A stretch of 64,000 bases of DNA, taken from contig JANYCY010000091.1 of the NCBI GenBank assembly GCA_025360045.1, forward strand, positions 16,199-80,198, given 5' to 3'. The notes beneath the pieces are model-generated. The model saw only the letters and a program-made list of their open reading frames with translations. It did not search any database and was not told the origin of the DNA. Positions 23,257-39,348 of this stretch are shown piece after piece. Position 1 is the first letter of the stretch. The number at the start of each line of letters is the position of its first letter. The stretch is from Janthinobacterium sp. Its GTDB lineage: Bacteria > Pseudomonadota > Gammaproteobacteria > Burkholderiales > Chitinibacteraceae. The position numbers and the translations under genes are program-made.

Positions 23257-23321
23257 GTTGCTCTCCTTGCATTGCCCGATTTAAGCCACTTATTACGAAT
23301 CAACCACAAAAATTAATCCGT

Positions 23322-23444
23322 TTTTGAAACAAGCGGCTGATACTTACCCGAAAGATCAGAATGTGTTCTGAAACAAAAGTGTTATAAGAGCCCGAAAGAT
23401 CCCCTAAGCCCTTATTTTTACAGAATTAAAATGTGTTCTGAAAC
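23322..23444 (-). repeat. Tandem ~44-bp units copied from the ftsA 3' end
   Basis: AATGTGTTCTGAAAC (plus-strand reading) occurs exactly at 23430-23444, inside the last codons of ftsA, and again at 23360-23374 in the intergenic gap. A third diverged version is near 23311-23333 (AATTAATCCGTTTTTGAAACAAG). CCCGAAAGATC is repeated at 23347 and 23391. On the minus strand the copy reads as the ftsA tail FQNTF followed by a stop. Confidence 0.8.
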
Positions 23445-24658
23445 CAAGACTTCATACGACCAAAAACATCCCCCATGGAGCCTTCTTTGCCCCGATGGAC
23501 GGGGTTCTTGAGTAGCTGTTCACGCGCGATCAATAGCAAACCCACCGCGGTGGAATAACGTGGGTTTTTCACCACTTCGGCTAGGCCGCCAACATACTTT
23601 GGCGTGCCCATCCGCAGTGGCATATGGAAAATCTCTTCACCTAGCTCCACCATGCCAGGCATCATGGCAGCCCCTCCGGTAATGACGATGCCGCTGGATA
23701 GGCGGCCTTCAAAACCAGATCGACGAAGTTCTTGTTGAACTAAGGCGTACAGCTCTTCAATTCGTGGCTCAATCACTTCGGCCAAGGTATGACGGCTCAT
23801 TTGCCGAGCACCGCGCTCACCCACGCCCGGTACTTCTATCATTTGCGCTGGATCACTCATATGGCGTAGTGCTACGCCATATTGCAATTTGATCGTTTCT
23901 GCTTCGGAAGTTGGGGTCCGTAGCGCCATGGCGATATCGTTGGTGACTTGGTCGCCAGCAATTGGAATCACTGCGGTATGGCGGATTGCGCCGCCAATAA
24001 AGATCGCCAAATCGGTGGTGCCGCCGCCAATATCAACGAGGCAAACGCCAAGATCTTTTTCGTCTTCGGTAAGAACTGAATAAGCTGAAGCCAGTGGCTG
24101 TAATACCACTTCTTCAATTTCTAAGCCGCAGCGCCGCACACACTTAGTAATATTTTGCACCGCACTGACTGCACCGCTGACGATATGCACGTTTACATGT
24201 AAGCGCACACCCGACATGCCTAAAGGCTCTTTCACGCCTTCTTGGCCATCGATCATGTATTCCTGCGCCAAGATATGCAGCACTTGATGATCGGTGGGGA
24301 TATTGACCGCGCTGGCCGTTTCAATCACGCGATCTACATCGGCGGAGGTGACTTCCTTATCTTTGATCGCCACCATGCCATCCGAGTTAATACTCTTGAT
24401 ATGGCTGCCCGCGATGCCGGTAATGACTTCGCGAATTTTGCAATCGGCCATCAGCTCAGCTTCACCTAACGCTGATTGGATGGCTGCAACGGTTTTTTCA
24501 ATGTCGACAACCACGCCACGTTTCAAACCACGCGACGCAGCTGAGCCAAGGCCAACTACATTGAGTGCGCCGTCTTCCTTGATCTCGGCAACCACGGCCA
24601 CCACTTTGGAGGTGCCTATGTCTAGCCCGACGATGAGGTTTTTGCTATCCCTGGTCAT
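23426..24658 (-). CDS. ftsA: FtsA, actin-like division protein
   Basis: About 410 residues starting MTRDSKNLIVGLDIGTSKV. The actin-fold phosphate-1 loop (GLDIGTSKVVAVVAE), phosphate-2 region (LVDIGGGTTDLAIF) and ITGGAAMMPGM adenosine motif are clear. The C-terminal amphipathic helix GRMKSWFQNTF ties FtsZ filaments to the membrane. The ATG at 24658 overlaps the stop of a tiny upstream frame (ATGA); the longer start at 24676 is unsupported. Both flanking junctions contain duplicated gene ends. Confidence 0.97.
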   Translation of the reverse strand: MTRDSKNLIVGLDIGTSKVVAVVAEIKEDGALNVVGLGSAASRGLKRGVVVDIEKTVAAIQSALGEAELMADCKIREVITGIAGSHIKSINSDGMVAIKDKEVTSADVDRVIETASAVNIPTDHQVLHILAQEYMIDGQEGVKEPLGMSGVRLHVNVHIVSGAVSAVQNITKCVRRCGLEIEEVVLQPLASAYSVLTEDEKDLGVCLVDIGGGTTDLAIFIGGAIRHTAVIPIAGDQVTNDIAMALRTPTSEAETIKLQYGVALRHMSDPAQMIEVPGVGERGARQMSRHTLAEVIEPRIEELYALVQQELRRSGFEGRLSSGIVITGGAAMMPGMVELGEEIFHMPLRMGTPKYVGGLAEVVKNPRYSTAVGLLLIAREQLLKNPVHRGKEGSMGDVFGRMKSWFQNTF

Positions 24659-24710
24659 CTGACAACCTTTATACAATTCATCACTACAAACTTAAAAAAC
24701 GACATGTATT

Positions 24711-38043: not shown

Positions 38044-38333
38044 TCAGTCACCGGCTTAGCTACGTGTTCACCGTGAGGCAAGATCACTTGCGTACGGTTT
38101 ACCCCAGGCACTTGCATACCCAATTTTTGTGTTGCTTCTGCTTCAATACGCGAATGCATGGCCCAAGTACTTTGCTCTAGCTGTAATTGCCCCCACTCCA
38201 CATCGAGCTTGCGGCTTAAAACGGCTTCTTTTTGCAGTTCGCCATAAAATTTGCGTGCCTTATGCTGGCTAGTAATTAAAGCCAGCGCGCACGCAATGAG
38301 TATGAGCAGCAAAAAAAGATTTAAACGTGTCAC
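38040..38333 (-). CDS. ftsL: FtsL, division protein
   Basis: 97 residues. It has a single membrane helix at the N terminus (about 4-19), then a coiled-coil/leucine-zipper-like periplasmic segment (LQKEAVLSRKLDVEWGQLQLEQ). It starts at GTG overlapping the rsmH stop (GTGA) and ends overlapping the ftsI start. It forms the FtsQLB scaffold. The assignment rests on topology, size and position, since FtsL is poorly conserved. Confidence 0.9.
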   Translation of the reverse strand: MTRLNLFLLLILIACALALITSQHKARKFYGELQKEAVLSRKLDVEWGQLQLEQSTWAMHSRIEAEATQKLGMQVPGVNRTQVILPHGEHVAKPVTE

Positions 38334-39262
38334 AGAGCAATCTCTGTTCTTTCTGCCGTGCGCAAGATGGCGCTACGTGCACGGGGGTTTTCATCGACTT
38401 CTTTTTCACTGGCGCGGATCGGTTTGCCAATGATTTTGACCGGTGGCTCGGCAATATCGGCCGCACGCACGGGCAAGCGAGAAGGCAGCTTGTCGCCTTG
38501 CGCGGCATCTTGTAGAAAGCGTTTAACGATGCGATCTTCCAGTGAGTGAAACGCAATCACCGAAAAACGCCCGCCTTGATTCAGCATTTCCAAAGCTTGC
38601 GGCAGGGTTAGCGCAAGCTCCTCAAGTTCGCGATTGATGTAAATCCGTATAGCTTGGAAGGTACGTGTCGCCGGATTCTGCCCCGGTTCGCGGCTGCGGA
38701 CGGCTGTTGCGACAATCGCGGAAAGCTGGCCGGTGGTGCAAATCGGTTCTCCCGCTCGACTCGCAACAATCGCTGCTGCAACCTGTTTAGCAAACCGCTC
38801 TTCGCCATAGTCTTTTACCACCTCTGCAATTTCTTTCTCATCGGCCAAATTCAGCCACTCGGCCGCCGTCATGCCGCGCGTGGTGTCCATACGCATATCG
38901 AGCGGAGCATCAAAGCGAAAACTAAAGCCACGGCTGGCGTCATCTAGCTGTGGGGAAGACACGCCCAAATCCATCAGCACGCCATCTACGCTGTCAATGC
39001 CACGCAGATTTAATTCTTTTTGCAGATTGACGAAGCCTTCGTGCACGATGGTGAAGCGTGGGTCGTTAATGCTGGCTGCCTCAGCAATCGCCATCGGGTC
39101 TTTATCAAAAGCAATCAAACGGCCATCAGGGCCTAGCTTGGAAAGAATCAGCCGCGAGTGGCCGCCTCGGCCAAAAGTGCAATCGACATAAATGCCATTT
39201 GGCTTGATCGCCAGTGCGTGCACGGCTTCTTCAAGTAAAACGGTGGTGTGTATAAGCGTCAA
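38330..39262 (-). CDS. rsmH: RsmH (MraW), 16S rRNA (cytosine1402-N4)-methyltransferase
   Basis: 310 residues. The N terminus TLIHTTVLLEEAV leads into the SAM site YVDCTFGRGGHSRLIL; LMDLGVSSPQLDD and FSVIAFHSLEDRIVKRF are conserved. It methylates N4 of C1402. The start appears to be TTG (39262), inside the TTGA overlap with the stop of the upstream mini-ORF. No ATG or GTG start is available in a better position. Confidence 0.95.
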   Translation of the reverse strand: MTLIHTTVLLEEAVHALAIKPNGIYVDCTFGRGGHSRLILSKLGPDGRLIAFDKDPMAIAEAASINDPRFTIVHEGFVNLQKELNLRGIDSVDGVLMDLGVSSPQLDDASRGFSFRFDAPLDMRMDTTRGMTAAEWLNLADEKEIAEVVKDYGEERFAKQVAAAIVASRAGEPICTTGQLSAIVATAVRSREPGQNPATRTFQAIRIYINRELEELALTLPQALEMLNQGGRFSVIAFHSLEDRIVKRFLQDAAQGDKLPSRLPVRAADIAEPPVKIIGKPIRASEKEVDENPRARSAILRTAERTEIAL

Positions 39263-39348
39263 AGTGACGTGCCTTGTAAAAAGTTAATGTGGCCGTCGAT
39301 ACTCCACACGGCTTCTTCAAGGTGAGCAGCGGTGTGTATAAGTGTCAA
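39259..39348 (-). CDS. 29-residue mini-ORF between mraZ and rsmH (junction duplication)
   Basis: It starts at TTG, as rsmH does: TLIHTAAHLEEAV against RsmH TLIHTTVLLEEAV (10 of 13 residues identical). The first 42 nt of the two are about 80% identical. It ends LQGTSL-stop; MraZ ends QDIVL-stop. It overlaps the mraZ stop and the rsmH start in the same way, both times within TTGA. The gap is therefore fully open and could pass ribosomes from mraZ to rsmH. Confidence 0.6.
   Translation of the reverse strand: MTLIHTAAHLEEAVWSIDGHINFLQGTSL

Follow-up and report, generated by a model that had tools for sequence, protein, structure and literature searches.

The 64,000-nucleotide (nt) stretch of Janthinobacterium sp. 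contig JANYCY010000091.1 analysed here (the window) carries on its minus strand a division and cell wall (dcw) cluster running from mraZ (39782) to ftsZ (22078), and at three of its gene junctions a short open reading frame (ORF) fills the space between the genes. Pfam families agree with the assigned names for all eight dcw genes tested, and the remaining names are those we presume from cluster order. The first mini-ORF (39259..39348, minus strand like all features given below; 29 codons, TTG start) lies between mraZ (39345..39782, PF02381) and rsmH (mraW; 38330..39262, PF01795), with a TTGA overlap of 4 nt at the mraZ stop and its own TGA stop within a TTGA overlap with the rsmH start. The second (34464..34550, 28 codons) connects murE (34550..36031) with murF (33097..34464), both of which encode Mur ligase domains and were named by cluster order; it has a TAATG overlap at each end (1 nt with the murE stop), begins like murF and ends like murE. 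The third (30314..30409, 31 codons) joins murD (30411..31814, PF21799 MurD-like N-terminal domain) to ftsW (29127..30314, PF01098). A preliminary description of this DNA had reported mini-ORFs of 28-31 codons filling these three gaps, which coordinates and reading frames bear out. It also had them overlap both neighbours by stop and start; this applies in full at mraZ/rsmH and murE/murF, but at murD/ftsW only on the downstream side, as the ATG lies 1 nt beyond the murD stop and the stop overlaps the ftsW ATG. The stop of every one of the three mini-ORFs thus overlaps the downstream start.

We aligned every gap with two 60-nt references, the end of the upstream gene and the beginning of the downstream gene; mismatched gene ends drawn from junctions in 38 genomes (n = 479 or 480) and 2000 shuffles served as controls. 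All three mini-ORFs begin like the downstream gene, as previously claimed: 30 of 36 positions are identical to the rsmH start and 27 of 35 to the murF start, and the match to the ftsW start comprises 35 identities and 10 mismatches. None of the 479 controls or 2000 shuffles was as good at any of the three junctions, and the similarity therefore survived the shuffle test that the preliminary description had named as a possible refutation. A copy of the upstream gene end is beyond chance at murE/murF (0/479 controls as good) and weak at murD/ftsW (5/479 controls and 65/2000 shuffles as good). At mraZ/rsmH of L096, one of the dcw clusters from eight same-genus genomes (L089-L096), the insert reached an upstream-end score of 13 versus a control maximum of 10. 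The tandem order of upstream end, downstream start, upstream end and downstream start is clear at murE/murF and at gspF/gspE, and is seen as an array at murD/ftsW of L096; at several other junctions only one gene end is recognisable in the copy. The borders of the duplications are too diverged for short matching bases to be assigned, and we make no claim about them.

Three further junctions of the window cluster contain copies of upstream gene ends. The ftsI/murE gap holds a copy of the ftsI 3' end at 36119..36161 (by alignment; 0/479 controls as good) and possibly a second one at 36028..36061, seen by eye and unscored, with AAGGAAGA right before the murE start; AAGGAAGA adjoins murE in 9/9 same-genus clusters. 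The preliminary description had credited this junction with the same design, but the gap has no copy of the murE start (score 6; 476/479 controls as good) and no bridging ORF in the window. The upstream-end copies that had been described at ftsQ/ftsA and ftsA/ftsZ stood up, the former being supported (24713..24730 by alignment; 1/479 controls as good) and the latter confirmed (aligned core at 23356..23375; 0/480). Preservation of the frame, asserted for six junctions, holds for three of them. A repetitive extragenic palindromic (REP)-like GTAGGGCGGGTG palindrome lies in the unbridged ftsQ/ftsA gap (24677-24765), and a palindromic repeat, ACCACGGAGG...CCTCCGTGGTTC, separates mraY from murD (31815-32007). 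This repeat is dispersed, matching dozens of times in the genome (40 of 368 candidates scored for the whole cluster). Its sequence is present at mraY/murD in the window, L089 and L096 and absent from L092; for the remaining genomes, gap length was the sole criterion.

We compared the window cluster (genome G000, 4.02 Mb) with the dcw clusters of eight same-genus, 28 same-family and one same-order genome. In the 29 clusters outside the genus, the flanking genes overlap by 1-4 nt in most cases (21/29 at mraZ/rsmH, 21/29 at murE/murF, 23/29 at murD/ftsW), with distances of at most 14, 30 and 30 nt, respectively. Open gaps at the three junctions are a derived state. Within the genus, the distances in the order window, L089 to L096 (negative for overlaps) are 82, -4, -4, -4, -4, -4, 79, 162 and 58 nt at mraZ/rsmH; 85, 85 and then seven times -1 nt at murE/murF; and 96, 96, 90, 90, 90, 1, 1, 106 and 320 nt at murD/ftsW. 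The 320-nt gap of L096, whose source genome is in 4 contigs, consists of three near-identical 107-bp tandem units, of which L095 has one, and the 162-nt mraZ/rsmH gap of L095 contains two chained ORFs. At ftsQ/ftsA, tandem steps of 131 bp amount to one unit in L090, two in L091 and three in L092; the units of L091 and L092 comprise the ftsA leader and first codons. Judged by eye, the leaders of the added units in these two clusters are closer to those of other species of the genus than the first unit's, which hints at recombination. The window groups with L089 as its sister in a tree of 13 dcw genes, in which the deepest branch comprises L095 and L096. The mraZ/rsmH insert is present in the window and L094 and absent from L089, which implies more than one gain or loss, or a transfer. 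The six occurrences, previously taken as independent, are so only in part, several inserts being inherited in common with other genus members. An assembly artefact was rejected, as the inserts occur in several genomes, including few-contig ones (G007, 1 contig; G004, 4 contigs).

We counted a gap as bridged if an ORF, or several ORFs in a chain, leads from a start codon close to the upstream stop to the downstream start. Across the nine same-genus genomes, all gaps of at least 40 nt at the three junctions are bridged, chains included (mraZ/rsmH 4/4, murE/murF 2/2, murD/ftsW 7/7). The genus total of 18 bridged among 68 such gaps divides into 13/13 at these junctions and 5/55 elsewhere, namely three at ftsQ/ftsA, one at ftsI/murE and one at murG/murC (L094); the 13 are partly common by descent and so do not represent 13 independent events. 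In the clusters outside the genus, 8/96 gaps are bridged, seven of them at ftsQ/ftsA. The ftsQ/ftsA bridging ORFs in other genera of the family (L104, L106, L110, L113, L118) end in GKEVRQ or GRGRQ. Length variants are bridged throughout (29 and 28 codons at mraZ/rsmH; 31, 29 and 35 codons at murD/ftsW), and relatives differ by whole codons because both forms are bridged. In five of the seven genomes with a murD/ftsW mini-ORF, its start lies 1 nt beyond the murD stop, and most other relay ends overlap by 4 or 1 nt.

Whereas the frame is kept, the peptide is only weakly constrained. Twelve pairs of homologous mini-ORFs, with two sequences used twice, differ by 44 synonymous and 93 nonsynonymous changes, giving a pooled ratio of nonsynonymous to synonymous rates (dN/dS) of 0.63, compared to 0.03-0.06 for the dcw genes in four pairs. 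The dN/dS check, which the preliminary description had asked for, therefore speaks for retention of the frame and against a functional peptide, as the strong purifying selection of a functional small protein is not seen in these pairs.

The design is not confined to the dcw cluster. A frame-blind duplicate scan with inspection of 864 kb of the same genome found gene-end duplications at the gspM/gspN-type pair T2SSM/T2SSN (L128), at moaE/mobA-moaC (L139), BufB/HvfC-like (L141) and the gspF/gspE-type pair T2SSF/T2SSE (L152), and between genes for a tetratricopeptide repeat (TPR) protein and a PilB-GspE-like ATPase (L156). These five loci and four tight window junctions make up nine tight duplications, eight of which are bridged, ftsI/murE being the unbridged one, as compared to one third expected for fresh duplications (P about 0.001). 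Duplications at probably non-tight junctions (ftsA/ftsZ and ftsQ/ftsA of the window; L164) are unbridged. The L141 bridge overlaps each flanking gene by 26 nt and is not counted by the automatic rule, and REP-like GTAGGGCGGGTG palindromes lie inside the bridging ORFs at L156:13079-13202 (43 codons) and L152:8911-9124 (73 codons). We kept L144:19645-19755 out of the nine; here, two chained mini-ORFs (MSHW..GRA and MSRE..GDRA) stand ahead of a gene starting with MSRW, probably a double junction relay. At L164:14377-14540, the leader and first codons of one gene, which we take to be miaB, are copied in tandem with an offset of 100 bp; this is not a coupled junction.

The bridged junctions of these other operons vary among the nine genus genomes as well. 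T2SSM/T2SSN is bridged in G000 (35 codons) and G008 (49 codons) and overlapping in seven, T2SSF/T2SSE is bridged in G000 and G008 with an overlap of 4 in six and an ambiguous start in G002, and moaE/mobA is bridged in G000 (28 codons) and G008 (27 codons) with a distance of 1 in seven. The TPR/ATPase junction is bridged in G000 (43 codons), G007 (34), G005 and G006 (32 each) and G003 (31), and overlapping in four. The T2SSM copy of G008 is identical to its parent at 116 of 129 positions; at moaE/mobA, 212 nt separate the copied segment from its parent, and the unit length of 83 nt fits an internal loss of 129 nt, or 43 codons. Gene-end duplicates with a score of at least 18 were found in 12/268 gaps of the own genome (0.57 expected), five of them bridged by the automatic rule, and in 3/119 gaps of G007 (0.30 expected). 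The control samples gave 0/66 (G034, 0.33 expected), 0/46 (G019, 0.87), 1/33 (G029, 1.77) and 2/70 (G035, 0.53), none bridged. The dcw cluster is enriched, with 3/14 junctions versus 6/515 in the sampled genome (L128, L139, L141, L144, L152, L156; P 0.001), a comparison chosen after the fact. Despite this enrichment, we rejected the cluster as a special target because the design is also present in unrelated operons. For the same reason, the mechanism aimed at gene ends of this operon, which the preliminary description had offered as its second explanation, is not supported; moreover, bridged inserts elsewhere can be dispersed repeats.

We extended the analysis to 77 further dcw loci, most titled betaproteobacterial and a few otherwise, with 730 junction instances that include 501 tight junctions and, in 53 loci, 101 gaps of 45-400 nt. 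Bridges occur in 34 of these gaps, compared to 9.9 expected from shuffles of the gap interior (Poisson P 2e-9, the species not being independent), and in 12 of 17 gene-end duplications. The MurC start, for instance, is copied at murG/murC in L035, L053, L060 and L075, and the MraY C-terminus at mraY/murD in L046, L064 and L083. Altogether, long MraY C-terminal copies occupy this gap in five records, titled Gallionella (L046), Proteobacteria (L064), Burkholderiales (L078), Methylophilus (L080) and Thiobacillus (L083), three of the five being bridged under the strict rule. Some bridges are palindromic repeats: the inserts of L067 and L047 match 133 and 33 times in their own genomes, counting the insert itself and both strands. 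In a second sample of 19 regions and 38 junctions, 5/9 gaps are bridged versus 1.2 expected, so that the predicted relay excess held in this small set.

Taken together, the mini-ORFs are likely to be copies of their junctions that arose by short tandem duplication and survived at coupled junctions mainly as translational relays. That junction duplications were kept for this role had been proposed in the preliminary description, and it is the best fit to complete bridging at three junctions of the genus, to the other operons and to the excess in the 77 loci. Translation of the mini-ORFs and their coupling of the genes are our inference from the sequences; they would likely carry ribosomes over gaps that otherwise uncouple the neighbours. 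The ancestral genes were presumably coupled by stop/start overlap, a state retained in most relatives. A duplication spanning the overlap would copy start, stop and ribosome-binding region at once, and its length would be in the right frame in one third of cases; the start of the first copy would then open an ORF that the stop of the second copy ends. Having finished the upstream gene, a ribosome would resume translation at the copied start, read some 20-50 codons and terminate on the copied stop overlapping the downstream start. Out-of-frame duplications would be purged, as they would uncouple essential or stoichiometric genes, and the peptide of the relay would hardly matter. The same frame filter should act on any type of insert, which would account for the bridging ORFs that other bacteria have within dispersed palindromic repeats at these junctions. 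For gene pairs of Escherichia coli and H. volcanii, coupling is reported to be nearly lost at distances of about 20 nt (Huber et al., 2023, PMC10666635). By that measure, inserts of 60-200 nt would be expected to uncouple a pair unless bridged, and selection for coupling would filter inserts for bridging frames. A further, rather doubtful idea is that junction relays act as a general rheostat. As units multiply in tandem (up to three occur at murD/ftsW and mraZ/rsmH, besides single and double ones), each added mini-ORF would cut the handover by a fixed factor, such that the copy number of a coding-neutral repeat tunes the ratio of essential wall and division enzymes; new small proteins might be seeded as well.

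Several observations weigh against the relay reading or restrict it. Inserts of 65-186 nt at ftsI/murE occur in 9/9 genomes of the genus and are bridged only in L096, so coupling there was dispensable, and under the strict test 67/101 gaps of the 77 loci are unbridged; the earlier statement that duplications were tolerated only when coupling stayed intact is thus too strong. Among the gene-end duplications of the 77 loci, 5/17 are unbridged, as are all three in the same-genus sample of G007 (400 kb), counted irrespective of the ancestral state. Bridges in the own-genome sample show a mild excess only (15/268 gaps versus 6.9 by chance). The tightness of the nine duplications was decided after seeing them, and L141 was called tight from its own 26-nt overlaps, with no relatives used. 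Three weak own-genome matches (window 17539, L132:8430 and L154:4067; scores 18-20) are unbridged and were left out of the nine, their ancestral state not being considered. The ending like the upstream gene, which had been claimed for all three mini-ORFs, is not significant at mraZ/rsmH of the window (158/479 controls as good). The absence of stops from the 137 differences between homologues, with 4.2 expected, reaches only P 0.014, and start codons were chosen via homology or codon score. Finally, gap length mod 3 equals 1 in 42/79 gaps at normally tight junctions of the first sample (P 2e-4), and this signal, predicted beforehand for the second sample, failed there (2/9); we dropped it as a clean test.

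Rather than being selected for coupling, the bridging ORFs might be neutral leftovers, by-products of frequent junction duplications. A fresh duplication of an overlap opens a bridge one third of the time unselected, and the unbridged cases at ftsI/murE, in the 77 loci and in G007 fit such a scenario. Neutrality is nevertheless unlikely given that eight of nine own-genome duplications are bridged and that bridging at the three junctions is complete throughout the nine genomes, albeit with shared descent. Nor would duplication by itself yield bridges in unrelated inserts, yet the dispersed repeats have them as well. Open frames over gaps of 60-300 nt would likewise be selected if the ORFs served to keep the mRNA translated, protecting it from Rho-dependent polarity or RNase, with the exact handover irrelevant. 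Relay stops, however, coincide with the next start, and the mraY/murD and murC/ddl gaps, measuring 146-224 nt in 8/9 genomes each, are bridged in 0/9 (counting full bridges, not partial cover); we find mere ribosome cover quite improbable.

The remaining alternatives place the function in the product or in the inserted DNA. Small proteins with their own role in wall synthesis or division could explain why the murD/ftsW frames are open in 7/9 genomes and why parts of the upstream protein's C-terminus recur in some peptides (T2SSF, T2SSM). With the high dN/dS, variable length and sequence, sister species differing in presence and another peptide at each junction, this is very improbable. Still harder to credit is a functional mobile element or RNA structure with an incidental ORF. 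Some inserts do form hairpins (L096 mraZ/rsmH, L090 murD/ftsW), and the REP-like elements sit inside the L156 and L152 bridges, but fold z-scores of 17/18 bridged gaps (the 320-nt gap left out) scatter from -2.3 to 0.3 without evident common structure, and a shared fold was rejected. A dispersed element as source of the window mini-ORFs was rejected as well: the three have no second copy in the genome, each finding itself only (all 6, 4 and 5 candidates scored), apart from the mraZ/rsmH query also matching the adjoining rsmH start, and the whole-cluster search agrees in showing no dispersed copies of them among the 40 of 368 candidates scored.

The relay reading has parallels in known systems. 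The closest of them, the mycobacterial interspersed repetitive units (MIRUs) reportedly described by Supply et al. in 1997, can occur in tandem copies, and short ORFs that deliver ribosomes to a start are found mostly in leaders or constructs. MIRUs are ORF-bearing repeats inserted at start codons and coupled at -4 and share with the junction inserts their short length, their position at a start codon, the coupling of their ORF to the next gene and probably little disturbance of expression (PMC12548453). The internal ORFs of the window overlap the flanking stop and start in the same way, with the murD/ftsW start 1 nt past the stop. MIRUs, however, are one dispersed mobile family, whereas each relay resembles its own junction, lies outside mycobacteria and, for the three window mini-ORFs, belongs to no dispersed family; the proposed junction relays work like MIRUs without being members. 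Termination-reinitiation coupling at -4/-1 has the same overlap geometry and the distance dependence that would make a relay necessary; the cases described there concern two genes, while the relays interpose one ORF or a chain of two or three (PMC10666635, PMC12548453). The geometry of coupled pairs, an overlap of 4 or 1 nt or a very short distance, is found at the relays. Upstream ORFs that deliver ribosomes, including bicistronic designs, likewise bring a ribosome to a start by a short ORF (PMC12548453); the relays differ in sitting between two operon genes, as products of evolution. Many intergenic small ORFs of Enterobacteriaceae also start or end within 10 nt of a neighbouring gene; the available sections of that study read them as candidate microproteins and mention neither a junction-duplication origin nor a relay role (PMC11188072). 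We found no earlier account of relays born of junction duplication in the literature searched, which left most subscription papers outside its reach.

The relays amount to a natural experiment on a debated point, that is, whether a ribosome at termination needs an overlap or can get to a start codon that lies tens to hundreds of nt away, and the repeated bridging of inserts at coupled junctions by an exact relay bears on this debate. If the relay reading is true, operons would have a simple way to absorb inserts without uncoupling their genes, and such inserts would be a source of new intergenic small ORFs. It would also caution that open frames conserved between the genes of an operon do not necessarily encode functional peptides.

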